Positions 1-62,819 of a DNA stretch of 64,000 bases are shown piece by piece. A model generated the notes under the pieces. That model searched no databases, had not been told where the DNA came from, and was given only the letters and a program-made list of their open reading frames with translations. Every line of letters begins with the position of its first letter. The first letter of the stretch is position 1. The position numbers and the translations under genes are program-made. The stretch covers positions 28,367,760-28,431,759 of the forward strand of contig CM026557.1 in the NCBI GenBank assembly GCA_015143295.1, given 5' to 3'. The DNA comes from Tetracentron sinense. Its lineage: Eukaryota; Streptophyta; Magnoliopsida; Trochodendrales; Trochodendraceae.

Positions 1-284
1 CTTTGCCCGCTCACATGGCGGCGGTCCACAACGTGTTTCATATCTCCCAGCTTCGGAAGTACATCCCGGATCCTTCTCACGTCATCGAGCTTGATCCGGT
101 TGAGATTCGAGAGGATCTCACTTTGGTTGAGAAGCCGGTTCATATTTTGGATCGAAGAGACCAAGTACTTCGCAACAAGACTATTCCGCTAGTTCTCGTG
201 CAATGGCAACATCACGCTCGAGAAGAGGCTACATGGGAACGTGAGGCCGAAGTCAAGGCGAAGCACCCCGAGTTGTTTGAATGA
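1..284 (+). pseudogene. Tekay-like chromovirus integrase C-terminus with chromodomain
   Basis: This is the end of a Ty3/Gypsy polyprotein that starts left of the window. The reading is open from the window edge to a stop at 282-284. The tail of the integrase shows the family motif VFHISQLRKYIPDPSH. A chromodomain-like segment follows, with ILDRRDQVLRNK, a central VQW and EEATWE. In chromoviruses this domain steers integration towards particular chromatin. The PPT and 3' LTR follow within 110 bases, the normal Gypsy order. The Tekay (Del) assignment rests on this motif and on the PPT context. Only the last ~93 residues are visible, so the state of the rest of the element is unknown. Confidence 0.85.
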
Positions 285-393
285 TTTTATGTATGACTTG
301 TAATTTTGTTTCAAATTGTTATGCTAAGTTGATTAAATTGTAAAGCACGCATTGTCCAAATTTCGAGGACGAAATTTTGTAAGGGGGGGAGAA
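285..393 (+). other. 3' untranslated spacer and polypurine tract of the Tekay-like element
   Basis: Short spacer between the polyprotein stop and the 3' LTR. It ends in the sequence CGAGGACGAAATTTTG followed by the purine run AAGGGGGGGAGAA (381-393). A PPT in this position primes plus-strand DNA synthesis and marks the first base of the LTR at 394. The same context, on the other strand, borders the LARD LTR at 14602. Confidence 0.85.
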
Positions 394-605
394 TGTAGCA
401 CCCCAGACTTTTTCATCCTTAATGAATACCACCTTCGTAGCTAATTGGCCGTTTTTATAGTCTAATTAATAAATAAGGGAGAAATCGGAAATTCCGAAAC
501 GTCAGAAATGTGCGTTTTCGAAAGACGAACCCAACGCAAGTTGAATCGTCGAAATCCGACGAGCGAGTCAAAAGATATGGTCAAAACAGTCCAGACATAC
601 AGAGC

Positions 606-792
606 ACCGATCGCTCGGTCCAGTCAGCGATCGATCGGTCCATGACCGATCGATCGGTAGCTATCGCACGGTCAGAAATTTTGTATGGGGAAATTTTCCA
701 GAGAGTGAGTTTTTAACCGATCGATCGGTCATAAACACCGATCGCTCGGTAGGCAACCGATCGATCGGTCATAACCACCGATCGCTCGGTCT
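606..792 (+). repeat. Cluster of 14-bp palindromes ACCGATCGATCGGT
   Basis: About seven copies of ACCGATCGATCGGT, a perfect palindrome, or its near relative ACCGATCGCTCGGT lie in 190 bases. The last four are spaced roughly 20 bases apart and alternate between the two forms. They lie upstream of the TATA-like box in the LTR promoter region, so they could be a protein-binding array. Equivalent clusters occur at the same relative place in the LTRs at 20564, 39789 (minus), 31728 (minus) and 60941. The LARD LTRs carry a different palindrome, GGATAGATCC, there. Confidence 0.8.
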
Positions 793-1746
793 TCGCGTTT
801 TTGCAGAAATTTCAGTAAGGGCGTTTTCGTCTTTTGGGTGTTAAACCCTTACCCATAAGGGTTTGCTCGACCCTTTGAGGCCTCATTTATAACATTTGAG
901 AGATTTGGGAGATAAGAGAGAAGAGAAAAGGGTTTCCTAAACCTAGGTTGCTTTTGGAGAAGAAATCAAAGGGGTGAAGACCCTAGATCGTCCCCAAGCA
1001 CGTTTTCTTCACGATTTCAACTCAAGCTCGTGTGGAGGTGCATTCTCCAAGCTAGGGCAGCACTCACTCACGTTTTGAAAGAGGTTTCTTCCCCCAACTC
1101 AAGTCCCCTTCAAGCGAAGGCTTCCTCCTTCCAAATAGAGCTTCTATTTCAAGGTTTCTTCAAGATCAAACCTTGATCTAAGGTTAGTACACCCTACTAA
1201 CTTACCCTAGCAATAAATCTAGGTTTTTCTTATGAAATGTGATTTATGCTATTATGTTTGCCTCCCATATGAAATGTATCATCTCCTATGAACCTAAATA
1301 AGATAAGAAAAAGGTATGGATGTGTGTGGGTGTTGATGTGGCGATTGGATGCCGAGGTGTATGTTGGGTGATGTGTGTGATGGAAATGGTGGATGGGTAC
1401 TTTACCAATAATGAACATACCTTGATTTTTGGATGAAAAGTAGGCACTAAAAAGAAGAAGATGAATCATTAAGGAACCTTGCATGCTATGTGTTTGACAA
1501 AATGCCTAAACTAGGAATAAATGACATAAATGAAGAAAATGAAAGTAGACCTTATGCATGTGTTCTTATGAATGATGAACTATTCAAATGCCACGTAGAT
1601 TACTCAAATTCCTATATGGTTATACTGTGGATTGAATTGCTATACACTACTCTTCATGTCACATTGTCATCATGATATTACAAGTGCTACACACACCACA
1701 CATGCATGCATGAAACCGATTTTTCCAAGATTGTAATTGTATATGA

Positions 1747-2091
1747 TGAATCAAGAACATGACAAGGAGGTTGGTAGCCCAAGGAAGGGTGCTAGCCTCT
1801 GGCTCACAAGAGAAATGAAACAAGAACATGACAAGGAGGTTGGTAGCCCCAGGAAGGGTGCTAGCCTCTGGCTCACAAGTGAAATGAATCAAGAACATGA
1901 CAAGGAGGTTGGTAGCCCCAGGAAGGGTGCTAGCCTCTGGCTCACAAGTGAAATGAAACAAGAACATGACAAGGAGGTTGGTAGCCCAAGGAAGGGTGCT
2001 AGCCTCTGGCTCACAAGAGAAATGGAACAAGAACATGACAAGGAGGTTGGTAGCCCAAGGAAGGGTGCTAGCCTCTGGCTCACAAGTATAC
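1747..2091 (+). repeat. Five tandem 69-bp units in LTR
   Basis: Five near-identical units of exactly 69 bases; the start CATGACAAGG recurs at 1758, 1827, 1896, 1965 and 2034. Each unit contains GAGGTTGGTAGC followed by GCTAGCCTC, an imperfect inverted repeat that can fold into a hairpin with G-U pairs. Since 69 is a multiple of three, long open frames arise on both strands. These are a by-product of the repeat, not genes. The array lies within the proposed LTR intron. Confidence 0.9.
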
Positions 2092-2331
2092 AAGTCAAGA
2101 ACAAATCAAGACATGAAATACAAGACAAGACACGACACACATACATGATTTGACCGAGACACGAAAAAGGTTTCCGAGACATGAGTTTTACCGAGGTTTT
2201 TGCATTCATACACGCATGTCATGATATGGCTATGTATCTTATGCTTTCACTATTGCTTTAAATTAATATCTTGTATTGCTCACTGTTGTTATGCTTTTGC
2301 TATTGTTATGGTTAGCTAGTAGTTTGTACTC

Positions 2332-2352
2332 GCTGAGTATTCCATGCTCAGC
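2332..2352 (+). other. Conserved LTR hairpin GCTGAG/CTCAGC
   Basis: A six-base perfect stem (GCTGAG / CTCAGC) around a nine-base loop TATTCCATG. The same hairpin is found in eight other LTRs in the window: 22461-22481, 25110-25130 and 40228-40248 (minus), 32147-32167 (minus), 11934-11952 and 16501-16519 (minus, LARD), 55499-55517 (minus) and 62339-62357. The surrounding sequence differs greatly between families. Its loop ends in an ATG, and an acceptor-like GGCAG|GT follows about 15 bases after the stem. Confidence 0.75.
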
Positions 2353-2502
2353 CGTACTTTTATGTCGGCAGGTACTGTGGATGTCCTCGACCCCGAGCCT
2401 TGGGTCGAGGAGGAGTATGTAGAGGAGAGGGAGCTACCTATCCCATGGCAGTCTCAGGAGGATGGGGACTTGGATGTGTGGCCATACCTCGACTACTGTT
2501 GA
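2344..2502 (+). CDS. LTR micro-reading frame, EPWVEEEY family
   Basis: A 52-codon frame plus stop. It can start at the ATG in the hairpin loop (2344) or at the ATG before TCGGCAGGT (2362, MSAG). The product would be small and strongly acidic, with the core DPEPWVEEEYVEE and the C-terminus DLDVWPYLDYC. Frames with the same core occur at the same place in all other LTRs of this kind in the window. This copy and those at 22473, 24960 and 40078 all have exactly 53 codons including the stop. The function is unknown. It may be a real peptide or an exon joined to an upstream leader at GGCAG|GT. Confidence 0.5.
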   Translation: MLSRTFMSAGTVDVLDPEPWVEEEYVEERELPIPWQSQEDGDLDVWPYLDYC

Positions 2503-2539
2503 GAGGAGAGGGTTAGAGAGTTCCTTTTTGTATTTTGAT

Positions 2540-2557
2540 AGGTGGGCATGTCCACCT
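2540..2557 (+). other. Hairpin AGGTGG/CCACCT downstream of micro-frame
   Basis: A perfect six-base stem with loop GCATGT, 38 bases after the micro-frame stop. Counterparts lie at 22669-22686, 40017-40034 (minus), 55277-55294 (minus, stem GAGTAG/CTACTC), 31940-31953 (minus, stem GCGG/CCGC) and near 62553-62567. The stem sequence changes between families while pairing is kept. The loop keeps a TGT-like core. Confidence 0.65.
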
Positions 2558-2782
2558 TTACTTTGATTGTATTTGGTATATGTTAACTTGGAATACTATT
2601 TGGAGTTATAGAAGAAAAGAAAAAGTTGGCTTATGCTTCCGCACTTATGTTTAGTTTCCGCGCTCTGATTTTCATTGAATTATATTATGTTTAGCCTCTT
2701 GCATTACAGGATGGTTTGACAGGTACACGTAGTCACCTCTAAAGTATCCCTTAACTCCTAGGGGGTATTTTGGGGCGTGACA

Positions 2783-11519: not shown

Positions 11520-11831
11520 CATTCTGTCACGACCCAAAATACCCCCTAAGAGTTAGGAGACTTTGGCAATGTGACCGCCGTGTCATGCCATCCTGTCATA
11601 ACACATAAACTGTACATAACATCCTGCAAGAGCATACAAGGAACGCTAAAAAATGAACTTGAAAATTTCTTCTTGACAGTGTAATCTTTCACGTGCTAAT
11701 ATAAACAAAATACTAAATGATAAATAAATCTGTATACAAGGTCCATTACTTGAGTTATCAACTCAATTTCAATACAAAAACTCCCAGTAGATCAACCCAA
11801 ATACATGTCTCTCCCTCTCATCACTCACCCA

Positions 11832-11915
11832 TCATTGATGACTGCCCATAAGCTTCTCGGCATACTCCTCCACAATCATTGGTTCAAGAGCACAACCATC
11901 CAACCTGTGACTTGC
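11832..11915 (-). CDS. LTR micro-reading frame, LARD version
   Basis: 28 codons including the stop, counted from the conserved GCA after the acceptor-like site. The core reads LEPMIVEEYAEKL, matching EPWVEEEY of the other LTRs in position and spacing, and the frame ends SHQ. It is shorter than the Tekay-like version and has no in-frame ATG at its beginning. That is one reason to think of an exon rather than a free-standing ORF. Function unknown. Confidence 0.35.
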   Translation of the reverse strand, partial: ASHRLDGCALEPMIVEEYAEKLMGSHQ

Positions 11916-12254
11916 CGAAGATAACAACTTCGACTGAGCATTGAATACTCAGCGTCTACCAACCACTAACTAGCAGGGCTATGACATCAAAATAGAATAC
12001 ATGTGCGTAGAAACTTAAACAATTCATAAGTATACTTTAATCAGAGTGCGGAAACCATACTTTAAATCGTTACTTTCAAAACCTTACATCTTTGAGCAAA
12101 ACCAATACTTAGAACCAATTCATACTTTGAGCGAACCGTACTTTTTCAAAAATGTACTTTGAGATCATTCTTTACAAAACATACTTAGAGTTCTTTCCTT
12201 AAAAACATTCTTTATGAGGGTTTATCACATAGCCTTGTCAAAATCTCCTTTCTT

Positions 12255-13230
12255 TCAAAACATACTTTACAAGGGGATATCACATATCCTTTTTCCAAAA
12301 CATACTTTACAAGGGGATATCACATATCCTTTTTCCAAAACTCACTTTACAAGGGGATATCACATATCCTTTTTCCAAAACTTACTTTACAAGGGGATAT
12401 CACATATCCTTTTTCCAAAACTTACTTTACAAGGGGATATAACATATCCTTTTTCTTATTAAGCTTTAAAAGGGCGCAGCACATACCCTTTGTCAGAATC
12501 ACATACCTTACAAGGGGGCCTCACATACCCATTATTCTTATTCAGCTTTATCAGGGGGCATGTAAATACCCTTTGTTCGAATCCCCTTTCTCAGGGGGTA
12601 TGTAAAATACCCTTTTCCGAACCACGCTTTACAAGGGGGAATCACAATACCCTTCTTTCTTATTCAGCTTTATCAGGGGGCATGTAAGTACCCTTTGTTC
12701 GAATCCACTTTCTCAGGGGGTATGTAAAATACCCTTTTCCGAACCATGCTTTACAAGGGAGTGTCAAATAGCGATTTCATGAATCATACTTTCCAACTTT
12801 CTCAGGGTACCCTTGTCCGAATCCACTTTCTCTGGGGGTATGTAAAATACCCTTTTCTGAACCATGCTTTACAAGGGGGTGTCAAATACCCTTCATTCTT
12901 TCCAGCTTTACAAGGGGGGCATGCAAATACCCTTTTCAGAAACTTCACTTTACAAGGGGGTATCCAATACCCTTCATCAAAACCTTTTCACTTTAAAGGT
13001 GACATGTAAATACTCTTTTCAAAACCTTACTTTACCAACCTTCTTTGAAAACCATAATTTAAAGGGGTACCAAATATCTTTTCAGAAATCTTACTTTAAA
13101 AGGGGGTCTCCAATACCCTTCATTTGAAAACATACTTTACAATTCTTTATGAGGAGGGATTGAATACCCTTTTGTCGAAAATCATTCTTCACAAGCTTAC
13201 AAGGAGGGAGTAATTACCCTTTGTTTCAAA
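12255..13230 (-). repeat. Long array of hairpin-forming tandem units
   Basis: The first units repeat exactly every 40 bases (12261-12455) and then grade into variants of 30-60 bases; there are more than 20 units in all. Each contains an inverted pair flanked by CTTTACAAGG and CCTTTT. Early units have GGATAT-CAC-ATATCC. Later units have GGGTAT-GTAAA-ATACCC, with both arms changed together. Open frames here are repeat artefacts. The array is copied in the other LTR at 16800-17760. Confidence 0.85.
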
Positions 13231-14601
13231 AATCATCTTTGAGTACTTAACACCTATAGAAAAACTCCTTTTTCAATTTTCCTTTACTTATACCAAACTC
13301 ATCACATGTTTAAAACCCCACAATTCCATACTTTTCATCAAAACCAAACCCTTTTTATCATTTGATGATAATAAACCAACTTTCATAAGAAAAACCATCT
13401 TTTACACCTCACTTTTACCAAAAACATGCTTTACATATTACTTTCAATACATAAATCACAACAAAGATAGTAAATAGAGGGTATCTACTTATGAAATCCT
13501 AACAAGGCAATTTAGTAGAAGGTATGTACCTTTCAAAACTGAATCCCTACGGTTTATAGCTTGCGAATACTCCTTGGTAGCAAGATCCAAGCTTTGGAAG
13601 AAAGCTTGAAGTGAAAAATCAACTCCACTTGATCACTAGCACAAAGCCTGGAAGAACCCAACCTCGTCTCCCTCTTTTCCTTCAACTTTCTCTCAAAAAT
13701 CTCCTCTCTATGGTTCTTGTAACCCTAGCCACGAAATTATGGTTTATATAGGCCAAGGGGTGAGGCCAAAGACCATTACACCCCCTAAATATTTGAAGGA
13801 GTCGGTTCCAAGGCCAAATCATGCTCCAAGGATCTATCCGTCATGAGCACGGATAGATCCTTCAAAAAACCCTTCTCTGGCCAAAAAACTCATACAAAAT
13901 TGGGGTTGATAGATCGATTGGTCATGGGGATGGATAGATCCATCAGTATATGGGATTGAAGGATCTATCCTCCCCAAACTAGATAAATCCTTCACTATTC
14001 ATTCCTTCATTTTTCCTGCTGTGGTATTTCGACCATAACTTTTGATTCGGTGATCTAATTTTGACGATTCAACTTGCGTTGGATTCTACATTAAAGGGGG
14101 AACAACTTTCATGTTTTGAACAGAGCCTAATTATTCTATCTTTATATTCCAAAATGGTCTTAAAGGCTACTGGTCAGGAATTTCAGCAGACAATTTGTCT
14201 AAAAACCCACTTTTTACCGAGCTTTGACTCAAGATCGGGAAATGTGATAAACATGAACCTTAAAGAGAATCTCAATATCTTTCTAATGGCTCAAGAATCA
14301 CTCGATTCCAATTTCGGATGAGAAAACTAGAGTTCTCTCGAGTTGAGGTATTCTTCGACATCCCTCTTTGCGACACTTGGAGTATTGTATACTCTTGTTT
14401 TATTTTCATCCCAACACCCTAAAACATTTTCCACACATATTTTGTCGCATTTGAAACCCCCTTTCATTTTAAAACATGAAACCATCATCCCATTAATTGC
14501 TTTGGTCTGGAAACACTATTCACAGCACTATTCATAGCACTATTCACACACTATTCACAGCACTATTTACAGTCTAGTGAACTCGGTTCCGGTGTTCTAC
14601 A

Positions 14602-16092: not shown

Positions 16093-19000
16093 TGTCACGA
16101 CCCAAAATACCCCCTAAGAGTTAGGAGACTTTGGCAACGTGACCGCCATGTCATGCCATCCTGTCATGACACATAAGGCGTACATAACATCCTACAAGAG
16201 CATATAAGGACGCTAAAAGGCGAACTTGAAAATTTCTTCTTGACAGTGTAATCTTCCACGTGCTAATATAAACAAAATATTGAATGATAACTAAATCTGT
16301 ATACAAGGTCCATTACTTGAGTTATCAACTCAATTTCAATACAAAAACTCCCAGTAGATCAACCCAAATACATGTCTCTCCCTCTCATCACTCACCCATC
16401 ATTGATGACTGCCCATTAGCTTCTCGGCATACTCCTCCACGATCCTTGGTTCAAGAGCACAACCATCCAATCTGTGACCTGCCGAAGATAACAACTTCGA
16501 CTAAGCATTGAATACTCAGCGTCTACCAACCACTAACTAGCAAGGCTATGACATCAAAATAGAATACATGTGCGTAGAAACTTAAACAATTCATATGTAT
16601 ACTTTAATCAGAGTGTGGAAACCATACTTTAAATCGTTACTTTCAAACCCTTAAATCTTTGAGCAAAACCAATACTTAGAACTAATTCATACTTTGAGCG
16701 AACCGTACTTTTTCAAAAATGTACTTTGAGATCATTCTTTACAAAAATACTTAGAGTTCTTTCCTTAAAAACATTCTTTATGAGGGTTTATCACATAGCC
16801 TTGTCAAAATCTCCTTTCTTTCAAAACATACGTTACAAGGGGATATCACATATCCTTTTTCCAAAACATACTTTACAAGGGGATATCACATATCCTTTAT
16901 CCAAAACTCACTTTACAAGGGGATATCACATATCCTTTTTCCAAAACTTACTTTACAGGGGGATATCACATATCCTTTCTCTTATTCAGCTTTATCAGGG
17001 GGCATCACATACCCTTTGTCAGAATCACATACTTTACAAGGGGGCCTCACATACCCATTATTCTTATTCAGCTTTATCAGTGGGCATGTAAATACCCTTT
17101 GTTCGAATCCACTTTCTCAGGGGGTATGTAAAATACCCTTTTCCGAACCACGCTTTACAAGGGGGCATCACAATACCCTTCTTTCTTATTCAGCTTTATC
17201 AAGGGGCATGTAAATACCCTTTGTTCGAATCCACTTTCATAGGGGGTATGTAAAATACCCTTTTCCGAACCATGCTTTACAAGGGGGTGTCAAATACCCA
17301 TTTCATGAATCATACTTTCCAACTTTCTCAGGGGGTATGTAAATACCCTTATCCGAATCCACTTTCTCAGGGGGTATGTAAAATACCCTTTTCAGAACCA
17401 TGCTTTACAAGGGGGTGTCAAATAACCTTCATTCTTTCCAGCTTTACAAGGGGGCATGCAAATACCCTTTTCAGAAACTTCACTTTACAAGGGGGTATCC
17501 AATACCCTTCATCAAAACCTTTTCACTTTAAAGGGGATATGTAAATACTCTTTTCAAAACCTTACTTTACCAACCTTCTTTGAAAACCATACTTTAAAGG
17601 GGTATCAAATACCTTTTCAGAAATCTTACTTTAAAAGGGGGTCTACAATACCCTTCATTTGAAAACATACTTTACAATTCTTTATGAGGAGGAATTGAAT
17701 TACCTTTTGTCGAAAATCATTCTTTACAAGTTTACAAAGAGGGAGTAATTACCCTTTGTTTCAAAAATCATCTTTGAGTACTTAACACCTATAGAAAAAC
17801 TCATTTTTCAATTTTTCTTTACTTATACCAAACTCATCACATGTTTAAAACCCCACAATTCTATACTTTTCATCAAAACCAAACCTTATTTTATCATTTG
17901 ATGATAATAAACCAACTTTCATAAGAAAAACCATCTTTTACACCTCACTTTTACCAAAAACATGCTTTACATATTACTTTCAATACATAAATTACAACAA
18001 AGATAGTTAGTAGAGGGTATCTACTTATGAAATCATAACAAGGCAATTTAGTAGAAGGTATGTACCTTAAAAAATCGAATCCCTACTATGGTTTATAGCT
18101 TGCGAATACTCCTTGGTAGCAAGATCCAAGCTTAGGAAGAAAGCTTGAAGTGAAAAATCAACTCCACTTGATCACTAGCACAAAGCCTAGAAGAACCCAA
18201 CCTCTTCTCCCTCTTTTCCTTCAACTTTCTCTCAAAAATCTCCTCTCTAGGGTTCTTGTAACCCTAGCCACGAAATTTTGGTTTATATAGGCTAAGGGGT
18301 GAGGCCAAAGACCATTACACCCCCTAAATATCTGAAGGAGTCGGTTCCAAGGCCAAATCATGCACCAAGGATCTATCCGTCATGAGCACGGATAGATCCT
18401 TCGAAAAACCCTTCTCTAGCCAAAAAACCCATACAAAATTGGGGTTGATAGATCGATCGGTCTTGGGGATGGATAGATCCATCAGTATATGGGATTGAAG
18501 GATCTATCCTCCCCAAACTAGATAAATCCTTCACTATTTATTCCTTCATTTTTCCCGCTTTGGTATTTCGACCATAACTTTTGACTCGGTGATCCGATTT
18601 TGACGATTCAACTTGCGTTAGATTCTACATTAAAAGGTAAACAACTTTCATGTTTTGTACAAAGCCTAATTATTCTATCTTCATATTCCAAAATGGTCTT
18701 AAATGCTACTGGTCAGGAATTTCAGCAGACAATTTGTCTAAAAACCCACTTTTCACCGAGATTCGACTCAAGATCGGGAAATGTGATAAACATGAACCTT
18801 AAAGAGAATCTCAATATCTTTCTAATGGCTTAAGAATCACTCGATTCCAATTTCGGATGAGAAAACTAGAGTTCTCTCAAGTTGAGGTATTCTTCGACAT
18901 CCCTCTTTGCGACACTTGGAGTATTGTATACTCTTGTTTTATTTTCATCCCAACACCCTAATACATTTTCCACGCATGTTTTGTCTCATTTGAAGCCCCC

Positions 19001-19140
19001 TTTCATTTTAAAACATGAAACCATCATCCCATTAAGGGTTTTGGCCTGAAAACACTATTCACAGCACTATTCATCGCACCATTCACACACTATTCACAGC
19101 ACTATTCACAGTCTAGTGAACTCGCTTCCGAGGTTCTACA
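16093..19140 (-). repeat. 5' LTR of the LARD-like element
   Basis: Copy of 11525-14601 with the same modules: hairpin (16501-16519), hairpin array (16800-17760), TATATA at 18284-18289, and palindromes near 18365-18520. It ends on the plus strand at GGTTCTACA, followed by the target-site copy CATTC. Confidence 0.85.
16399..16482 (-). CDS. LTR micro-reading frame, second LARD copy
   Basis: Same 28-codon frame as at 11832-11915, with the core LEPRIVEEYAEKL and the same end SHQ. Both LARD copies keep length, core and stop despite the LTR divergence. Confidence 0.35.
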   Translation of the reverse strand, partial: AGHRLDGCALEPRIVEEYAEKLMGSHQ

Positions 19141-20563: not shown

Positions 20564-21802
20564 TGTAGTACCCCGGACTTTTTCATCCTTAATGAATAGC
20601 ACCTTCGTAGCTAATTGGCCGTTTTTGTAGTCTAATTAATAAATAAGGGAGAAATCGGAAATTCCGAAATGTCAGAAATATTCATTTTCGAAAGACGGAT
20701 CCAACGCAAGTTGAATCGTCGAAATCCGACGAGCGAGTCAAAAGATATGGTCAAAACAGTCCAGACATACAGAGAACCGATCGCTCGGTCCAGTCAGCGA
20801 TCGATCGGTCCATAACCGATCGATCGGTAGCTATCGCACGGTCAGAAATTTTGTATGGGGAAATTTTCCAGAGAGTGATTTTTTGACCGGTCGATCGGTC
20901 ATAAACACCGATCGCTCGGTAGGCAACCGATCGATCGGTCATAACCACCGATCGCTCGGTCTTCGCGTTTTTGCAGAAATTTCAGTAAGGGCGTTTTCAT
21001 CTTTTGGGTGTTAAACCCTTACCCATAAGGGTTTGCTCGACCCTTTGAGCCCTCATTCAAAACCCTTAGACATTTTGAGAGCTAAAGAGTGAGAAGAAGA
21101 GGGTTCTGACCTAGGGTTTCCATTGAGGAAGAAATCAAAGGGGTGGACCTTCCTAGGTCGTCCTCAAACTTGGATTTGCTTCAAGTTCAAGGCTTGGATT
21201 CTCCAAATCCAACCTCAAGCTCGTGTGGAGTGCCTCTTCCAAGCTAGGGCAGCATTTCTACATCATCCTCAAGGATTTTCTTTCCCTTTTCAAGGTTAGT
21301 ACACTCTTCCTAGTTACTTTGGTAATAACCTAGGATTTTTCTAAGAAAATATGTGTTGGATCTTCCTCATTGCTCCCTTGTGTTAGTATATGCTAAATCC
21401 CTAAAACATAAACAAGATAATACAAACAAATGGTGGAATGTATGAATGGATGAGGAGTGGAGGCGATTGGATGCCATGTTGTGATGTGTTGAATGATGGG
21501 AAAAAATGGTGGAAGGGCATATTACGCATAATGAACACACCCCAAGTATTTGATGAAATGTCCGAATGAGAAAATATGAAATAACTAAAGGTAAAAAGGT
21601 TGAATACCACATGTTTGATAGAATGCATGAATAAACTAAGATTTGAAAGCATGAGTCACATAAATGTTCCCAATTTGGTAAGTTGTATGCATGTGTTTAT
21701 TTCGCTTCTTAAATTCTCATGTGAGTTAGGAATTGTTAAAATACTATATGTCATCATAATTTCACGATTGCTATGCACGACCACATATGTAGATGGAGGA
21801 TA

Positions 21803-22285
21803 TTGTCAAGGAGGTTGGTAGCCCAGGATTATGCGGGTACTAACCTCTGGCTCATAAGAAACGTATTGCATTGTCAAGGGGGTTGGTAGCCCAGGGATCA
21901 TGCGGGTACTAACCCCTGGCTCATAAGAAAGGACTCGAAAATGTTGCACTGTCAAGGAGGTTGGTAGCTCCGGTTAAGGGTGCTAACCTCTGGCTCATAA
22001 GAAAGGAAATGGTATTGTCAAGGAGGTTGGTAGCCCAGGATTATGCGGGTGCTAACCTCTGGCTCATAAGTAAGGTATCGTACTGTCAAGGAGGCTGGTA
22101 GCCCAGGGATGTGCGGGTGCTAGCCTCTGGCTCATAAGAAGTGTATTGTACTGTCAAGGGGGTTGGTAGCCCAGGGATGTGCGGGTGCTAACCCCTGGCT
22201 CATAAGAAAGGTATTGTACTGTCAAGGAGGTTGGTAGCCCAGGGATATGCGGGTGCTAACCTCTGGCTCATAAGAAATATTAAAA
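21803..22285 (+). repeat. Seven tandem hairpin units with covarying stems
   Basis: Seven units of about 65-79 bases of the form GTCAAGGAGGTTGGTAGC...GCTAACCTCTGGCTCATAAG. Within one array, the left arm GAGGTT pairs with the right arm AACCTC, GGGGTT with AACCCC, and GAGGCT with AGCCTC. In every unit both arms match, so single changes on one side have a partner on the other. Confidence 0.85.
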
Positions 22286-22472
22286 GGACAACTCAAAGAG
22301 GAATTGTATGATGTATAGATATGTTTTAGTTGCATAATAATTATGACTTGATAAAATGTTTATGTATGAGGTTGCTAGAAATGATTATGAACTATACTCC
22401 TCCCATTTCTTGTATATGATGTTGTTCGTTATTACCATTGTTAGTTAGGGGCTTGTACTCGCTGAGTATTCC

Positions 22473-22631
22473 ATGCTCAGCCGTACTTTCATGTCGGCAG
22501 GTACCCGAGTCCCTCTCGACATTTGTGATCCGGGTCCTTGGATAGAGGAGGAACCTTATGAGGATCTAGTAGTCGAGCCTCAGGCGGAGGCAAGAGACTT
22601 AGACCATTGGCCCCATGGGGATGACTATTGA
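22473..22631 (+). CDS. LTR micro-reading frame, EPWVEEEY family
   Basis: 52 codons plus stop. It starts MLSRTFMSAGTRVPLDI, has the core DPGPWIEEEPYED and ends RDLDHWPHGDDY. Total length equals that of the copies at 2344, 24960 and 40078 despite strong divergence in the middle. Strongly acidic, no signal peptide or membrane segment. Function unknown. The matching frame at 55332 shares RVP, the PWIEE core and the block VEARDLD. Confidence 0.5.
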   Translation: MLSRTFMSAGTRVPLDICDPGPWIEEEPYEDLVVEPQAEARDLDHWPHGDDY

Positions 22632-24670: not shown

Positions 24671-26155
24671 TGTCGCGCCCCAAAATACCCCCTAGGAGTT
24701 TAGGGATACTTTAGGCGTGACTATACGTACCTGCCAAACCATCCTGTCATGAACAAGATAAATACAGTACTAACCAATGATAATCAGAGCGCAGAAGCTA
24801 AACATAAATGCGGAAGCGTAAACTAACTTTTTCTTTTCTTCTAAGATTTCCAAAATAGTATTCCAAGTTAACACATATACAAAACATGTCTAAATCTAAG
24901 GTGGACAGGCCCATCTATCAAAATGTCAAAATACATAAGCACCCTCTCGTATTCTCCCCTCAACAATAGTCGAGGTACGACCACACGTCAAGGTCTCGGT
25001 CCGCCTGAGACTGCAGTGGGATAGATGGCTCTCTCTCCTCTATATATTCTTCCTCGACCCAAGGCTCCGGGTCGAGGGCTCTCCCAGTACCTGCCGACAT
25101 GAAAGTACGGCTGAGCATGGAATACTCAGCGAGTACAAGCTACTTGCTAACCATAATAATAATATACACCACAACAGGAATACAGTACATGGTAGTAATA
25201 GCATCGCAAGAGAAATAGCAGGAGGCATGGTACAATACAATCATCATAACGTGCGTGCATGAATGCGAAAACTCCGATAAAACTCATGCTTGGAAACCCA
25301 GGTCATGTCTCTGTATGCTCCGTGGAAATCATGTATGCATGCATGCATGAATGTCTTGTCATCATCTTGTAAACTTGCATCTTGTAACTTGTGAGCCAGA
25401 GGCTAGCACCCGAATCTCCCTGGGCTGCCAACCTCCTTGATATATATGGTTTTCTTGTGAGCCAGAGGCTAGTACCCGAATGTCCCTGGGCTACCAACCT
25501 CCTTGACAATATGTGATTTTTATTACTTGTTTAGTTTTCTTGTGAGCCAGAGGCTAGTACCGAAATGTCCCTAGGCTACCAACCTCCTTAACAATATGTG
25601 TTTTAGGGGTTTTCTTGTGAGCCAGAGGCTAGTACCCGAATGTCCCTAGGCTACCAACCTCCTTGACATGCAATATTTTCTTGTTAGTTATTATATGCAT
25701 ATGCTCTTGAAATCTCGGTTCATGCTATCATGCGTGCTCGTGTACGTGTCAATCGTGACAATCATGGAATAAGGATAATAAGAGAGATATGACATCACTA
25801 TTCAATTCGCAATATATGCATATGAGAATTTGAGTAATCAACATAGTATTTAAATCCATTCATCATTCATGAGAATACATGCATAAGGCCCCTTTCCATT
25901 TCTTCATTTAAATCATTATTTTATAGTTTAGGCATTTCGTCAAACACATCACATACATTGTTCCTTATTAGTTCATCTCCTTATTTTAATTGCATATTTT
26001 TCATCCAATCACACAAGGGTAAGTTTGTTATTTGTACAATGCCCATCCTCCATTTCCAACTCACAACCCACACATATCATACATCACACATTCGGCATCC
26101 AATCGCCACATCCAATCTCCCATCCACACATCCATTCCATTTCCCTTATCTTGTT
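24671..26155 (-). repeat. Truncated 3' LTR of the Gypsy composite
   Basis: Matches 39789-41275 closely and stops at about 26155, where sequence changes within TTATCTTGTT to Copia leader (also seen at 35915). It keeps the terminus with the micro-frame, CTGAG hairpin and four array units (25383-25670), but has lost the promoter half with the palindrome cluster. Confidence 0.85.
24960..25118 (-). CDS. LTR micro-reading frame, EPWVEEEY family
   Basis: 52 codons plus stop on the minus strand. It starts MLSRTFMSAGTGRALDPEPW, continues VEEEYIEERE and ends DLDVWSYLDYC. Length is identical to the copies at 2344, 22473 and 40078. Differences from the partner LTR copy at 40078 leave the frame open. Confidence 0.5.
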   Translation of the reverse strand: MLSRTFMSAGTGRALDPEPWVEEEYIEEREPSIPLQSQADRDLDVWSYLDYC

Positions 26156-32016: not shown

Positions 32017-32136
32017 CTAATGGTAACCCTCTACGGGAGGTTCCTCCAAAGGCTCCTCGACGTACTCCTCCTCCACCCAAGGGCTCGGAGCACAGATATC
32101 AAATGGAGCAGCTGCTCCGCCGTCACCTGCCGACAT
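32017..32136 (-). CDS. LTR micro-reading frame, family B
   Basis: 40 codons including the stop. It starts at ATGTCGGCAGGT (MSAG), continues with APFDICAPSPWVEEEYVEEP and ends VEGYH. The core PWVEEEYVEE equals that of the family A LTR at 2344, whereas the flanking DNA is hard to align. That is a pattern expected for selection on the peptide or for recent shared ancestry of this segment only. Confidence 0.45.
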   Translation of the reverse strand: MSAGDGGAAAPFDICAPSPWVEEEYVEEPLEEPPVEGYH

Positions 32137-32477
32137 AAGAAGTACGGCTGAGCATGGAATACTCAGCGGGTACTAAGCACTAACCAATAGTCATAGCATA
32201 CAGATAGCATACATAAAGGAGGAAGCAAGTTGCATATATAGAACATGAACAATTTATATCATACAAGGAAGCAAAACAATTTATAATCATGCTTGTATTT
32301 CGTAGAAAGCCGATGAAACCTCTTGAAAACATCGTGCACTTGACTTGACTTGAAAATACCATTTCCGTGCTTGAAACTTGTTATGTTGTCTTATCTTGTC
32401 ATATCATGCGTGTCATGTCATGTCATGCGTGTCATGCGAGTATCGTGCTTGCTTGTTCATAATTTAAACATGTTCAC

Positions 32478-32628
32478 ATGCCTAGTTGCCGTTCATAGTC
32501 CGTCACAACTAGTACCCTATATGCAGATGGGTATGCCTAGTTGCCGTTCATAGCCCGTCGCAACTAGCATCCATGCAGAATGTGAATGCCTAGTTGCCGT
32601 TCATAGCCCGTCGCAACTAGCTTCCATG
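32478..32628 (-). repeat. Three tandem hairpin units CTAGTTGC/GCAACTAG
   Basis: Three units of about 59 bases with arms CCTAGTTGC and GCAACTAG around CGTTCATAGCCCGTC. The first unit has a 7-base stem, the others 8. The sequence is unrelated to the GAGGTT arrays of the other LTRs, but the place in the LTR and the hairpin style are the same. Confidence 0.8.
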
Positions 32629-34042
32629 CGTGATGTGTGATGCTATGCTATGCGTGTCATGCCATGCTATGCTATGCGTGTCATGCGATGCTATGCATGT
32701 CATGCGAGGGGATGGGAGACCCTTCCCTATGAAATGCATGATTGTCTTGCCCTTGTCAAAAGCGAAGTGAAACATATCTTAGGATATGCCCCACCTCTAC
32801 GCCCCATACTTAAAACATCGGTAAATCACGTCATTTCATGCGTGCTCGTGAGATCGTGTGCATACTTGCATTTGGAATTAAATATAGCAATTTGGGGTAA
32901 TTCACAAAGCATAGCATATAGCAATTTAAGTGAGTAATAATCTACGCATTTTAAGAAAGGTAGGAAACACACTATCATGAACCCTAACAATTTAAAGAGC
33001 AATCAAGCGTAGGTTCCCTTAATTTATCATTTATTTTGTTCACCTTGGCATTTCATCAAACATGGGGTGTGTTCATTATTCACTTAAACCTAGATCATGC
33101 TTTTCTAGGTGGGTTATGCTCACATCACACTTGTATGTTCATTATTAGTACAATGCCCTTTCCCATTCGTTCATCACATCATCCACACGGCATCCATTCG
33201 CCAACATCCATCTCCATTCACCATTCATACCACCAATCTCATAACACATATATATGTGAAGGAAAACAAGAAGAAATAAAGGAAAAGAGAAGCTATAACT
33301 AGGAGGGTAGTAAGAAGTACCGACCTTGAAAAGATGAGGAAGAAACCCCTCTTCCAAACGACCGTGAGTTGCTGCCCTAGCTTGGAACACGAGCTCCACC
33401 CGAGCTTGAGCCGAGATCTTGAAGGAAAACGTGCTTGAGGATGATCTAGGGTCTCAAACCCCTTTGATTCCTCTTCAAAATGGAAACCCTAGATTTAGGA
33501 ACCCTTTCTCCTCTCTTCTAATCTCCCAAATCTTCTAAAGGTTGAGAATGAGCCCTAAAGGCTCGGGCAATCCTATATAAGAAAGGGTATAACACCCGAA
33601 TGCCGAAAATGCCCTTAGTGAAAATTCTGTAAAACGCGAGGGCCGAGCGATCGGTGTTAATGACCGATCGATCGGTTGCCTACCGATCGATCGGTTTCAT
33701 AACCGAGCGATCGGTTAAAAGTTCACTCTCTGGAAAATTTCTCCATACAAAAATCTTGACCAGTCGATAGCCTCCGAGCGATCGGTTTTGGACCGATCGA
33801 TCGCTCCATGGACCGAGCGATCGGTGGTCTGCAGGTCCAAACTGTTTTGGCCATAACTTTTGACTCGTTCGTCCGATTTCGACGATTCAACTTGCGTTGG
33901 GTTCGTACTTCGAAAACGAACATTTCTGACGTTTCGGAATTTCCAATTTCTTCCTTATTTATTAATTATACTTCTTTAAAGGCAAAATGGCAACGAAAGT
34001 GTCATGCATTAAATGTGAAAAGGTCCGGGGCTCTACAATAAA

Positions 34043-39788: not shown

Positions 39789-42168
39789 TGTCGCGCCCCA
39801 AAATACCCCCTAGGAGTTTAGGGATACTTTAGGCGTGACTATACGTACCTGCCAAACCATCCTATCATGAACAAGATAAATACAGTACTAACCAATGATA
39901 ATCAGAGCGCGGAAGCTAAACATTAATGCGGAAGCGTAAACTAACTTTTTCTTTTCTTCTAAGATTTCCAAAATAGTATTCCAAGTTAACATATATACAA
40001 AACATGTATAAATCTAAGGTGGACAGGCCCACCTATCAAAATGTCAAAATACATAAGCACCCTCTCGTATTCTCCCCTCAACAATAGTCGAGGTACGGCC
40101 ACACGTCAAGGTCTCGGTTCGCCTGAGACTGCAATGGGATAGTTGGCTCTCTCTCCTTTATATATTCTTCCTCGACCCAAAGCTCCGGGTCGAGGACTCC
40201 CTTAGTACCTGCCGACATGAAAGTACGGCTGAGCATGGAATACTCAGCGAGTACAAGCTACTAGCTAACCATAATAATAATATGCACCACAACAGGAATA
40301 CACTACATGGTAATAATAGCATCGCAAGAGAAATAGTAGGAGGCATGGTACAATACAATCATCATAACGTGCGTGCATGAATGCGAAAACTCTGATAAAA
40401 CTCATGCTTGGAAACCCAGGTCATGTCTCGGTATGCTCCGTGGAAATCATGTATGCGTGCATGCATGAATGTCTTGTCATCATCTTGTAAATTTGCATCT
40501 TGTAACTTGTGAGCCAAAAGCTAGCACCCGAATCTCCCTAGGCTGCCAACCTCCTTGATATATATGGTTTTCTTGTGAGCCAGAGGCTAATACCCGAATG
40601 TCCCTAGGCTACCAACCTCCTTGACAATATGTGATTTTTATTACTTGTTTAGTTTTCTTGTGAGCCAGAGGCTAGTACCCGAATGTCCCTGGGCTACCAA
40701 CCTCCTTGACAATATGTGTTTTAGGGGTTTTCTTGTGAGCCAGAGGCTAGTACCCGAATGTCCCTGGACTACCAACCTCCTTGACATACAATATTTTCTT
40801 GTTGGTTATTATATGCATATACTCTTGAAATCTCGGTTCATGCTATCATGCGTGCTCGTGTACGTGTCAATCGTGACAATCATAGAATAAGGATAATAAG
40901 TGAGATATGACATCACCATTCAATTCGCAATATATGCATATGAGAATTTGAGTAATCAACATGGTATTTAAATCCATTCATCATTCATGAGAATACATGC
41001 ATAAGGCCCCTTTCCATTTCTTCATTTAAATCATTATTTTATAGTTTAGGCATTTCGTCAAACACATCACATACATTGTTCCTTAGTAGTTCATCTCCTT
41101 ATTTTAATTGCATATTTTCCATCCAATCACACAAGGGTAAGTTTGTTATTTGTACAATGCCCATCCTCCATTTCCAACTCACAACCCACACATATCATAC
41201 ATCACACATTCGGCATCCAATCGCCACATCCAATCTCCCATCCACACATCCATTCCATTTCCCTTATCTTGTTTATCTTTGTTGAGTTAATACAATGCAT
41301 AGGGAAGGAAAGCATAATATAAATAATCACCATTTATAATAGAAAACCTAGATTATTGCTAGGGAAAGTTAGTAGGGTGTACTAACCTTAGATCAAGGCT
41401 TGATCTTGGTAGGAACCTTGATTTGGGCTCCAACTTGAAAGGAGGAAATCTTTTCTTGAGGGAGACTTGGTTTGGGGAAGAAACCCTCTTGCAATACCTT
41501 GGAGAATGCTACCCTAGCTTGAAAACGAGATCCCCCACGAGCTTGAGCCTTGAACTTGAAGCAATCAAGTTTGAGGATGATCTAGGGTTGTCAACCCCTT
41601 TGATTTCCTTCTCCAATGGAAACCCTAGGTGAAAACCCTCTTCTTCTCCTCCCTTTCTCTCTAAATGTTCTAAGTGTAGTGAATGAGGGTTCAAATGGTC
41701 GAGCAAGCCTTTATGGGTAAGGGTTTAGCGCCCAAAAGACGAAAATGCCCTTACAAAATGCAAAACACGGGGACCGAGCGATCGGTGCTTATGACCGATC
41801 GATCGGTTACCTACCGAGCGATCGGTGTTCTGACCGATCGACCGGTCAAAAAACTACTCTCTAGAAAATTTCCCCATAGAAAATTTTTGACCGTTCGATA
41901 GCTACCGATCGATTGGTTTTGGACCGATCGATCGCTGACTGGACCGAGCGATCGGTGCTCTGCAGGTCTGGACTGTTTTGACCATATCTTTTGACTCGCT
42001 CGTCCGATTTTGACGATTCAACTTGCGTTGGATTCATCTTTCAAAAAGGAACATTTTTGATGTTTCAAAATTTCTCATTTCTCCCTTATTTATTAATTAG
42101 ACTACGAGAAAGAACAATTAGGCACGAAAGTGCTATTCATTAAATATAGAAAAGTCTGGGGTGCTACA
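39789..42168 (-). repeat. 5' LTR of the Gypsy composite (2380 bp)
   Basis: Complete LTR. On the minus strand it starts TGTAGCACCCC and ends GGGGCGCGACA. Modules: palindromes 41770-41960, donor-like AAG|GTTAGTAC (first intron base 41386), four array units 40500-40790, CTGAG hairpin 40228-40248, micro-frame 40078-40236, AGGTGG hairpin 40017-40034. It is nearly the same family as 394-2782. Confidence 0.9.
40078..40236 (-). CDS. LTR micro-reading frame, EPWVEEEY family
   Basis: 52 codons plus stop on the minus strand. It starts MLSRTFMSAGTKGVLDPELW, continues VEEEYIKERE and ends DLDVWPYLDYC. Partner of the frame at 24960-25118 in the other LTR of the same element. Confidence 0.5.
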   Translation of the reverse strand: MLSRTFMSAGTKGVLDPELWVEEEYIKEREPTIPLQSQANRDLDVWPYLDYC

Positions 42169-55057: not shown

Positions 55058-55878
55058 TGTCGTGATCCAAAATACCCCCTAGGAGTTAAGGGATACTTTA
55101 GGTGTGACTATACTTAACCTGCCAAACCATCCTGTAATGAACAAGGCATTACATCATAAAATGAAATATGATACGGAGTGCAAAAGCTTAATATAATGCG
55201 GAAGCGTAACTAAATTTTTTTTCTTTCTATACACATGACTGTATTCTAAATTTGTACAATACAAAACACAAAATAAGAGTAGACATGCCTACTCATCAAA
55301 ATACAAAATGTAATATCTCTCTCTCTCTCTCTCAGTGGTCACCCTGATAGGGCCAATAGTCTAAGTCCCTTGCCTCCACCTGAGGCTCCACTACCAACTC
55401 CTCATATGGGTCCTCCATGCCATAGTCCTCCTCTATCCAAGGACCAAGAGCACAAATGTAGAAGGGAACCCGTGTACCTGCCAACGTAAAATGTATGACT
55501 GAGCATGGAATACTCAGCGTATACATACTACTAGCTAACAATGTTATAACAACAATAATATCACATGCAAATAATTAAAAGAAATATAGTTCACAAATCA
55601 TGCTTAAAATCAACATAGACATTCATTCATCAAATCTTATCTTTTTTGGAAAACAAAACACCTTCTATAGTTCTAATGAGTTCTTAGTAGCTTATGAGTT
55701 CTTGTGAGTTCCTTATGAGCTTATGAGTTCTTGTGAGTTCCTTGTGAGCTTATGAGTTCTTGTGAGTTCCTTGTGAGCTTATAAGACTTTCTTGTGAGTT
55801 CTTGTGAGCTTATGAGTCCTTCTTGTGAGCAAGAGGTTAGTACCCGTAAAACCTTGGGCTACCAACTTCTTTGACAAT
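55058..55878 (-). repeat. Truncated Gypsy LTR, family C
   Basis: The plus strand starts TGTCGTGATCCAAAATACCCC, the terminus of a minus-strand LTR. It holds the GAGTAG/CTACTC hairpin (55277-55294), a CT microsatellite (55315-55334), the micro-frame (55332-55481), the CTGAG hairpin (55499-55517), a GTGAGTTCTTGTGAGTTCC tandem array (55670-55820) and one GGTTAGTACCC unit. The promoter half is missing; sequence changes to Copia LTR end at about 55878. Confidence 0.8.
55332..55481 (-). CDS. LTR micro-reading frame, family C
   Basis: 50 codons including the stop, from the conserved GCA after the acceptor-like site. It begins AGTRVPFYI, has the core LGPWIEEDYGMEDPYEEL, then VVEPQVEARDLDYWPY. The match to the family A frame at 22473 is close at the peptide level (RVP, PWIEE, VEARDLD) although the LTRs differ. 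Confidence 0.45.
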   Translation of the reverse strand, partial: AGTRVPFYICALGPWIEEDYGMEDPYEELVVEPQVEARDLDYWPYQGDH

Positions 55879-60940: not shown

Positions 60941-62819
60941 TGTAGAGCCCCGAAATTTCATTTCACTAAGAATGAATAGTGTGTGAATAGTGCCCAAGTG
61001 TGGTTTTGTACACTTATGAGTCTTATGTTAATATATGTGTATTTGGAATTATGGCGTATATGTTCCAATGGGTCTATATGTCCTTAGGGAATGTGTTGAA
61101 AGCATAAAAGAGTGTTGGAAGTGCATTGGGGAAGATTCGAGTGGTGTAAACAAGGTTTTCAGCAAAACAGGGGTCGACCGATCGCTCGGTCATTACCTGC
61201 GATCGATCGGTCAACTACCGATCGCTCGATAGCTGTCGCACGGTTAACTTTTTTGTATGGGGAAAAATTCCAGAGAGTGTGTTTTTGACCGATCTCTCGG
61301 TCATAACACCGATCGACCGGTAAGCCACCGATCGCTCGGTCCATACCACCGATTGATCGGTCATACGCAGTTTTTCTTCATTAAGGGTGTTTAAGACTTT
61401 AACCATCACCCTTTGCCTATAAAAGGGCTGGGTTCGTGCCTTAGGGTTTCACAAACCCTTTGTGCATTGTTTTTGAGGGATTTGAAGAGGAGAAGGAGGA
61501 GAGGACTTGGTGATCGTTCAAGCTTGTGGAAGATCAAGTTCTTCCTTTCCATTTGGTGTTTTCCAACCAAGAACTCACTGTTCTTGCTTGTTCCAGCCAT
61601 TGGGAGTCAAACTCATTGATTTCTCTAAGGTAGATACACTCTACTACAATCTTGCAATCCTACTAGTTACTAAATACGATTCTTCTTATCTATGCCCTAT
61701 CTATATGTATTGATTTTATGTATGAAAAGGTGTGATTATATACTTGGATGAAGGTTACTATTATGATGCACTCTAAGTGTTTGATAAAATACCTCTAAGG
61801 GATTCTATGCTTAAATACGATGATTTCTCTTATTAAGTGCATATGCTCGCATGTCTCGCATGAACCGATGGTTTCCATGGATTTCTCAAAGTACAAATAA
61901 AGGTTTTTCACGAAAAGACGAATAATGAATGATTCTAAGTAACTCTATGATTTCTCTAAGATCGTTTCACAAGCTCTAAGGATCATACCATGCTCACAAG
62001 GAAACTCTATGATAATGCTCTAAGATCGTCTCACAAGCTCCACGGATCACAATGAAATGCTCTAAGATCTCTAAGGTTATGCTCTATGGAAATGCTCTAA
62101 GGTTATTGCTCTATGCTCTATGTCTCTACGGATCATAATGACTCTAAGTAACTCCATGAACTCACAAGAACTCATAAGGCTATGATTATCGATTGACTCA
62201 CACGGTTACAGTTTTGGTTTCGAATATTATCTCACATATGTTTTCACGGTTTCCATGCTTTAAGGATTTTACGGATTTCATTCTCCATGTCTTGTATGCT
62301 CTATGCCTAACCGCTTTATTGTTATTAGTTTGTATACACTGAGTATTCCATGCTCAGTCGATATTGTTATGATCGGCAGGTGCTCGGGTTCCATTCGATT
62401 TGTGTGGCGAAGAACCTTGGGTCGAGGAAGAGTACCGTGACCCGGAGCCTTCCATGGATCACTATCATGACGATGGTGCTTTAGATAGGAGTCGTGACTT
62501 CGATTTCTGTTGATCGACCGACTTAGAACTTGTGTCATTTTGTTATGTGAGTGTGGGGTTTGTCCACTCCACTTTTGGGTTTCTCACACATGTATACTTG
62601 TGGGTTCTTACTTGAGCCAAGTTATAGGAGTATTCATTTTGCTTCCGCTATGTTTAGTATTTTATTTTTTCCGCTGTGCATTGTATTTCGTTTCCACTAT
62701 GTATATTCAGGTACTCTGACAGGTTTCCACGTGTGCCTTATGTATCATACTGGAGGTATGATACGGCGGTCACGAGTCAAAGTATCCTTAACTCCTGTGG
62801 GGTATTTTGGGTCGCAACA
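60941..62819 (+). mobile_element. Solo LTR of Gypsy family D (1879 bp)
   Basis: Starts TGTAGAGCCCCG and ends GGGTCGCAACA, with perfect target-site copies GTTTC (60936-60940 and 62820-62824). Modules: palindromes 61172-61365, TATAAAAG at 61418-61425, donor-like AAG|GTAGAT (intron base 61630), a loose array of CTCTAAGATC/CACAAGCTC blocks (61920-62170), CTGAG hairpin 62339-62357, micro-frame 62376-62513, and a GTGG/CCAC hairpin near 62553-62567. It interrupts the Copia RNase H. Confidence 0.92.
62376..62513 (+). CDS. LTR micro-reading frame, family D
   Basis: 46 codons including the stop, from the conserved GCA of GGCAG|GT. It begins AGARVPFDLC, has the core EEPWVEEEYRDPEP and ends SRDFDFC. There is no in-frame ATG next to the start, so it would need splicing or another initiation site. 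It shares RVP(F/L)D, PWVEEEY and a final aromatic/Asp-rich end with the other families. Confidence 0.45.
   Translation, partial: AGARVPFDLCGEEPWVEEEYRDPEPSMDHYHDDGALDRSRDFDFC

Follow-up and report, generated by a model that had tools for sequence, protein, structure and literature searches.

Plant long terminal repeats (LTRs) are generally regarded as non-coding, carrying control signals only, and plant chromoviruses as elements that encode gag-pol only. Protein coding sequence inside an LTR is known from retroviral accessory genes that overlap it, namely mouse mammary tumour virus Sag and human immunodeficiency virus Nef; these belong to animal retroviruses, encode much larger proteins and are located in U3. 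Here we analysed a 64-kb stretch of Tetracentron sinense DNA (64,000 nucleotides, called the window), in which a short acidic reading frame recurs in LTRs of Tekay/Del chromoviruses, an abundant element group in seed plants. A sequence-only reading had reported it as a conserved micro-open reading frame (ORF) hidden in the LTRs of divergent families. It was found that coding constraint in these LTRs is very probable, being well supported for so small a sample, and that the conserved segment is likely a spliced coding exon. The fuller reading that we favour, at a rough probability of 0.4, is that of a spliced coding exon in Tekay/Del LTRs, the last of an accessory protein, read from the 3' LTR.

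In the available part of PMC4029996, Del-type LTR ends are described as having the U3 attachment site (att) TGTAACACCC and a U5 att of type A or B. The same partial text gives Tekay/Del elements a chromodomain integrase, a polypurine tract and long LTRs that are highly conserved in a region close to their 3' end, all features shared by the elements studied here, whose LTR start TGTAGCACCC is one base off the commonest Del U3 att. In contrast, the available sections of PMC4029996 and PMC6317226 describe no LTR-internal intron or LTR-coded exon, and those of PMC3601003 and PMC11656987 contain nothing on LTR-coded frames. Among the listed titles and abstract beginnings of open-licence papers, no report of an LTR-coded ORF or an LTR intron in plant elements was found.

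The nearest analogy for function may be CERV of Cer1, a Ty3/gypsy element of C. elegans. According to the accessible portions of PMC10309623 and PMC3315495, CERV is an accessory protein made from a spliced mRNA, a late exon of which encodes its C-terminal part, and Cer1 would share with the elements studied here the problem of exporting unspliced genomic RNA; in the excerpt of PMC10309623 this exon supplies the C-terminal half and the protein is required for export of the unspliced RNA. However, CERV is a protein of about 60 kDa, and the likeness is one of description. Additional ORFs (aORFs) of plant elements are likewise extra conserved frames without assigned function, but in the part of PMC7264820 available they lie in the internal region, mostly between pol and the 3' LTR, and none is placed inside LTRs, where our segment sits. 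Splicing yields subgenomic RNAs beside the genomic RNA in BARE1, Bagy2, Ogre and EVADE, but with introns in or between coding regions (at the end of gag in BARE1, between ORFs in Ogre) and not in the LTR, as far as the excerpts of PMC3735527 and PMC12786077 go. The latter, a 2025 review, calls plant elements generally intron-free with Ogre and EVADE as exceptions, and the available text of a sunflower direct RNA study reports that expressed elements are spliced, with no Tekay in the expressed set (PMC7730604).

All nine frames translated as first described, and each is closed by a stop. Including the stop, their lengths are 53 codons (frames beginning at 2344, 22473, 24960 and 40078), 40 (32017), 50 (55332), 46 (62376) and 28 codons (11832 and 16399). 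The coding segments, counted from the GT of the junction discussed below to the stop, are A1 (2372..2502, +), B1 (22501..22631, +; in the solo LTR 20564-22916, with TCAAC on both sides), A2 (24960..25090, -; in the truncated 3' LTR 24671-26159), A3 (40078..40208, -; in the 5' LTR 39789-42168), C (32017..32126, -; in LTR 31728-34037), B2 (55332..55477, -; in an LTR with its 3' end at 55058) and D (62380..62513, +; in the solo LTR 60941-62819). A shortened, probably decayed segment lies in LTR L1 (11832..11911, -; LTR 11525-14601) and a matching one in LTR L2 (16399..16478, -; LTR 16093-19140). These nine frames represent about seven insertions rather than nine separate copies, as A2 and A3 are the two LTRs of a single insertion (CCAAG on both outer sides), and L1 and L2, with 94% identity over 3.1 kb, those of one element, named a large retrotransposon derivative (LARD) in the sequence-only reading.

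The core PW(V/I)EE(E/D) that had been reported was present in A1, A2, B1, B2, C and D; A3 reads LWVEEEY, and L1 and L2 read EP(M/R)IVEEY. The peptides are acidic as stated, with isoelectric points of 4.05-4.14 in the seven non-LARD copies, which contain 10-14 acidic, 0-4 basic and 4-8 aromatic residues. Of the two hairpins said to enclose the frame, the first was confirmed throughout: a 19-base palindrome (2333..2351, + in A1) precedes the frame in 9/9 copies, with nine matches of 0 to 2 mismatches where shuffling expects 0.01 (up to 3 mismatches), and its RNA fold reached -15.4 kcal/mol in A1 (z -2.5; z -0.87 in D). The second hairpin (2540..2557, + in A1, z -1.68) was folded for A1, B2 and D and recognized by eye in other copies. 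In B2 (z -1.87) and D (z -1.05) the stem has different bases yet remains paired; covariation was judged by eye and from single folds. The claim that the surrounding DNA is hard to align was wrong for the downstream side of A versus B, where the LTR differs by 14-24%, less than the roughly 30% of the frame in DNA-only alignments.

The main test of coding constraint was a codon model on the pairs A1-A2 and B1-B2, with 1500 simulations at a ratio of nonsynonymous to synonymous change (dN/dS) of 1 as the null. The frame aligns without gaps in A1-A2 and with one 15-base gap in B1-B2, and the two paths are disjoint if A1, A2 and A3 form a group, as they do in the frame tree (99/97). For the two pairs together dN/dS was 0.30, with twice the log-likelihood difference (2dlnL) at 11.8, and 1/1500 null simulations was as extreme. 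Adding C-D gave 0.31 and 16.9 with a protein-guided alignment, or 0.43 and 7.97 with a DNA-guided one. When this DNA was read in its remaining two sense frames, dN/dS was 1.01 and 2.63 (2dlnL 6.6 for the latter, above 1), and six downstream and six upstream flank frames ranged from 0.53 to 1.69, with 2dlnL never above 3.29. IQ-TREE codon fits on the protein-guided alignment pointed in the same direction (lnL -735.4 versus -757.2 for the fixed model) and were not relied on. The single-insertion pairs A2-A3 and L1-L2 showed few changes and a dN/dS of 1.17, as expected if constraint acts only during element replication.

A scan of the whole LTR, in which 54 open in-frame scan windows were kept in five pairs, had its optimum at LTR positions 1975-2106 in A1-A3 (2dlnL 4.9) and A1-B1 (8.3); the proposed exon begins at 1979. 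Windows shifted upstream of the acceptor scored lower in both pairs, and 2dlnL never exceeded 2.0 in the rest of the LTR among the scan windows listed. Since the frame gave 0.30-0.32 and neither the other sense frames nor the 12 flank frames carried such a signal, coding constraint is supported. Among the window copies, the frame was not near neutrality, conservation was not equal in all frames, and DNA alignability did not account for the peptide similarity. As judged from these alignments, the segment is under purifying selection on its amino-acid sequence between insertions.

Changes per codon position, counted by parsimony on DNA-only alignments with permutation p values, agreed with this. 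In the seven copies positions 1, 2 and 3 had 39, 36 and 61 changes (p 0.0014), and in all nine 47, 44 and 70 (p 0.0034; 57, 45 and 76 in the other alignment mode, with an identical p), as compared to 114, 113 and 113 in the downstream flank. Smaller sets gave 32, 24 and 37 (A1, A2, B1, B2; p 0.09), 7, 6 and 11 (A1-A2; p 0.11), 7, 5 and 12 (B1-B2; p 0.05) and 6, 8 and 12 (C-D; p 0.07). The third base was highest in all 16 pairs computed (28 are possible among eight copies), sometimes by one change; these pairs are not independent and include same-phase columns only. Lineage-specific changes numbered 23, 31 and 29 of 140, 144 and 93 columns, with 6, 8 and 10 of 28, 28 and 20 in D alone and 5, 7 and 3 of 21, 20 and 12 in the LARD, where no clear third-base excess was seen; the LARD segment shows no clear constraint and is probably decayed.

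Insertions and deletions (indels) inside the LTR followed the frame as well. In A1-A2 there were none in the frame (131 bases), nine downstream (280 bases) and 15 upstream (240 bases); B1-B2 had the one 15-base indel in the frame, 16 downstream (285 bases) and 21 upstream. Stricter gap costs lowered the downstream and upstream counts to 5 and 13 (A1-A2) and 11 and 15 (B1-B2) and left the frame as before. Lengths divisible by three made up 1/9 and 2/16 of the downstream indels in the two pairs, and 5/59 over six overlapping comparisons of the downstream flank; gap placement is unreliable between more distant families. Substitutions in the frame (24/132 sites in A1-A2 and also in B1-B2) were close to the flank (0.21 and 0.23), and the lack of frameshifts is therefore not due to general conservation.

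The coding part appears to begin at the junction GGCAG^GT (the caret marks the proposed splice point). The distance from the palindrome to this CAG is 20 bases in A1, A2, A3 and B1, 21 in B2 and C, and 22 in D, L1 and L2, and 9/9 copies keep the stretch between GT and the stop in phase. Upstream of the junction, the frame is open for 15-17 codons in A1, A2, A3, B1 and C, with the ATG of the reported MSAG start three codons before it; a further ATG nine codons before it occurs in A1, A2, A3 and B1, not in C. B2 has ACG at the MSAG position and is open for 32 codons, with an in-frame ATG at 16, beyond the palindrome. D, L1 and L2, open for 2, 12 and 7 codons, have no in-frame ATG. The start codon is thus not conserved, the MSAG ATG being found in 5/9 copies (4/7 insertions) and any in-frame ATG in 6/9. 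Of the micro-ORF as first described, the coding constraint held up, and a stand-alone 53-codon ORF from that ATG became doubtful, because the start is missing in 3/7 insertions (two of them without any in-frame ATG) and conservation begins near CAG^GT. This beginning fits an exon better than an independent micro-ORF, and GGCAG^GT, lying behind a hairpin and downstream of a donor and a leader free of AUG, resembles a 3' splice site.

The putative splicing architecture spans most of the LTR. A TATA-like box lies at LTR positions 452-476 in A1, B1, A3, C and D (D counted from 60941) and near 850 in L2; in A1 it is at 852..861 (+, CCCATAAGGG), and its aligned counterparts are CCTATAAAAGG (D) and CTTATATAGG (C). 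Taking box + 30 as the start, the candidate exon 1 of A1 (882..1182, +) has no ATG in 301 bases, where 1.5 are expected. The comparison was extended with Tekay relatives from five bacterial-titled records (L001-L005; Streptomyces, Mycobacterium, Geminicoccus, Solirubrobacter and a Microbacteriaceae metagenome-assembled genome), which encode Tekay chromodomain relatives followed by LTR-like ends and are probable plant contamination. Over seven LTRs (A1, B1, A3, C, D, L002, L003) the exon 1 stretch had 0 ATGs versus 9.1 expected, of which L002 contributes only 0.2, and A1, A3 and B1 are related and not independent. L002 and L003 also have a TATA-like box, an AUG-free leader and donors CCAG^GT (L002) and CAAG^GT (L003), with GTAAGT and GTAAGG.

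The candidate intron of A1 (1183..2371, +; AAG^GTTAGTA to GGCAG^) contains 60 ATGs versus 39.7 expected. Its counterparts, all ending in GGCAG^, are 21295..22500 in B1 (+; TCAAG^GTTAGTACA), 40209..41386 in A3 (-; CTAAG^GTTAGTACA), 32127..33324 in C (-; TCAAG^GTCGGTACT, a weaker donor) and 61630..62379 in D (+; CTAAG^GTAGATACA, a weak donor placed by eye). The donor GTTAGTACA aligned in A1, B1 and A3. Behind the donor, ATGs exceeded expectation in 6/7 LTRs and fell below it in L003 (L002 and L003 counted to the record end). The GC content of the coding segment was 0.49-0.58 versus 0.35-0.41 in the intron (six LTRs). In the available part of PMC3735527 plant introns are described as U-richer than exons; base composition favours the intron model only partly, because exon 1 hardly differs from the intron. 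Tandem repeats of 66-69 bases with varying copy number were seen within the candidate intron at 1746-2086, 21804-22277, 25388-25513 and 40506-40631. In L004, a distant Tekay LTR of another source from its bacterial-titled record, a hairpin of CTGAGC and GCTCA around a loop stands at the corresponding position, followed by a pyrimidine tract and CAG^G ahead of the LTR end and the primer site; the fold of a piece cut within that hairpin did not show it.

Two sources of the start codon were tried and rejected. Exon 1 lacks an ATG in five window LTRs, and its last codon in the acceptor's phase is TAA for A1, A3, D and L2 and CAA for B1 and C. A donor of fixed form at the end of pol was set aside as the tails of the relatives differ. 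Side by side with this, L001 has a consensus-like donor, GAG^GTAAGT, two codons past its chromodomain match (L001:3297-3308), and L002 has TTAG^GTAAAT at the matching position; none is there in L003-L005 or A1.

On the spliced-exon reading, the transcription start would follow the TATA-like box, at a distance of about 480-506 bases from the LTR start (about 880 for the LARD). The AUG-free exon 1 would end at AAG^GT and be followed by an AUG-rich intron of 0.75-1.6 kb that ends at GGCAG^GT behind the conserved hairpin, where exon 2 would begin with its coding frame in phase 1 and a stop just before the second hairpin. Because exon 1 lacks an AUG and has the in-phase TAA in four LTRs, the start codon would most likely come from an internal-region exon (gag, pol or leader) spliced to the acceptor of the 3' LTR. 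The LTR would thus supply the last 25-47 residues of an accessory protein, and after the stop the hairpin and TTTTGTA-like stretches could serve 3'-end formation. In the 5' LTR the same acceptor would remove the AUG-loaded leader from the translated RNA, and unspliced RNA would be kept for reverse transcription. The acidic composition with aromatic residues resembles that of acidic activation domains, and in the most speculative step the tail may be regulatory, either activation-domain-like or like Rev or CERV. That Tekay/Del are complex retroelements, in which the LTR-internal intron is old and a regulatory protein is made by splicing, its last coding exon in the 3' LTR giving it an acidic, aromatic tail that regulates their own transcription or RNA export, we consider unlikely as a whole. 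If the spliced-exon reading is true, abundant plant elements would make an accessory protein from an LTR exon behind an intron, splicing would separate translated from packaged RNA as in complex retroviruses and Cer1, and solo LTRs would disperse coding exons together with splice acceptors across plant genomes.

The same constraint could be explained by a stand-alone small protein whose start ATG lies within the palindrome or immediately behind it (MLSRTFMSAG or MSAG), being the first AUG of an RNA in which, for example, the AUG-free exon 1 is joined to an AG of the palindrome. This is a possible but doubtful reading. A splice at CTCAG^C would indeed make MSAG the first AUG, A1, A2, A3, B1 and C keep the MSAG ATG in frame, and the ATG of B2 lies further upstream. 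However, B2 has ACG at the place itself, and an in-frame ATG is wholly absent from D, L1 and L2; even so, the frame of D runs open for 45 codons, includes the core and matches at its end. Between palindrome and junction, the linker also varies by 1 and 2 bases, and scan windows that extend past the acceptor on its upstream side had lower scores in A1-A3 and A1-B1. The missing or moved ATG in D, the LARD and B2 could reflect decay instead. A typical regulatory upstream ORF (uORF) needs less selection on residue identity than is seen in the frame. An improbable alternative is such a uORF in the 5' leader ahead of gag, for which the act of translation would be as important as the peptide: the location, enclosed by two hairpins and preceding both primer site and gag, suits it, but purifying selection on residue identity extends across the frame and the start codon position is not conserved. 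Short uORFs and structured leaders are known from plant pararetroviruses in the excerpt of PMC5902531 and offer a parallel.

Non-coding accounts fare less well. A purine-rich splicing enhancer flanked by hairpins, in which repeated GAA and GAG codons mimic the third-base signal, would be in keeping with the GAG/GAA-rich core directly behind the candidate acceptor and with the conserved palindrome. We hold it to be quite improbable, and rejected it as the sole cause, as the third base stayed strictly highest in 13/16 pairs after removal of shared GAA/GAG codons, with ties in A2-B2, C-D and L2-D; besides, the sole indel in A1-A2 and B1-B2 preserves the frame, and the other sense frames show no constraint. 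Even less probable is chance, with open frames alike through shared ancestry and recombination between LTR families. The LTRs do look like mosaics made by recombination, because B1 groups with A2/A3 in the downstream tree (support 89/91) and A1 does so in the frame tree; furthermore, the probability that a frame of at least 34 codons stays open under neutral change is about 0.16-0.49 per lineage, so openness alone proves little. Against chance stand the simulation p of about 0.001, the dN/dS near 1 in the single-insertion pairs and the flank frames without significant signal.

Several observations weigh against the spliced-exon reading. All copies were drawn from one 64-kb window, and the window, which holds no full-length element of the family, did not yield the upstream exon with its start codon. 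The splice sites, TATA-like boxes and start sites were picked by eye. D, C and L2 have a good box and A1 and B1 a poor one, C and D have weak donors, the pyrimidine tract that precedes GGCAG is weak as well, exon 1 and the candidate intron differ little in U, and L004 has no frame resembling the coding segment. Some in-frame upstream ATG is present in six of the nine copies, and the 27 bases before GGCAG are nearly invariant in A and B1 and are therefore uninformative on where coding starts. As for the constraint, the three antisense frames gave dN/dS values of 1.18, 2.28 and 0.34, the last similarly low to that of the frame; nine stop codons interrupt this antisense frame, which probably mirrors the sense frame. 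The scan optimum of A3-B1 was 1954-2085, with a 2dlnL of only 2.1, and for B1-C and A3-C the six best windows listed reached at most 2.0 and all fell within the initial 400 bases, none over the exon. The upstream control was skewed oppositely in its position counts (35, 34 and 19 in A1, A2, B1 and B2; 12, 14 and 5 in A1-A2), so single position-count values are not to be over-read. B1 and B2 were not resolved as sisters in either tree. Finally, protein homologues were found neither for the A1 peptide nor, at E <= 10, for the eight-row alignment (30 candidates).

Other comparisons of the peptide and its surroundings gave little. The A1 peptide had no match in Pfam, the AlphaFold2 model from the eight-row alignment was of no use (mean pLDDT 61.5, pTM 0.14), and neither the palindrome nor the Tekay chromodomain had a match in viral contigs.

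The frames do sit in chromovirus LTRs, as had been proposed. The end of pol of the element with A1 as its 3' LTR (3..281, +) encodes the C-terminal part of an integrase and a chromodomain (Pfam Chromo PF00385, 26.6 bits, E 5.6e-06, cut-off 25.1; SH3_Tf2-1 at 22.2 bits is below its cut-off of 30). This frame had 169 related proteins at E <= 0.001, with a best identity of 64%; among the 120 relatives listed, four carried plant names (Magnolia, Cephalotus, Juglans, Diospyros) and most were unnamed. The polypurine tract AAGGGGGGGAGAA (381..393, +) is followed immediately by TGTAGCACCCC, the start of LTR A1 (394..2782, +; TGTAGCACCCC to GGGGCGTGACA, delimited by self-comparison). LTRs holding the frame start with TGTAGCACCC (A1 and A3) or a close variant (TGTAGTACCC in B1, TGTAGAGCCC in C and D) and end in TGACA, CGACA or CAACA. 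GGG at -8 to -10 of the LTR end, a type A U5 att, is exact in A1, A2, A3 and B1 (4/9), and the other five have T at -8. The primer site TGGTATCAGAGC lies downstream of LTRs A3 and L2. From the chromodomain, the polypurine tract and the Del-type att ends we assign A1 to the Tekay/Del clade; the chromodomain was tested for A1 only, and the remaining LTRs are tied to it through LTR similarity.

The first 0.7 kb of the LTRs (394-1092, 20564-21254, 33338-34037 and 41473-42168) contains ACCGATCGATCGGT repeats, is 77-88% alike between families and has a CpG observed/expected ratio of 1.4-1.6 in A1, B1, A3 and C. The solo LTR D (60941-62819) lies inside a copia element, whose sequence resumes on either side; a second copia fragment at 49316-50282 shows the site uninterrupted, and a copia polyprotein frame of 1334 amino acids (RVT_2, rve, gag_pre-integrs and others) occupies 56975-60979. 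A frame at 7630-8232 matches DUF7745 barely above the cut-off, with a plant mobile domain below it.
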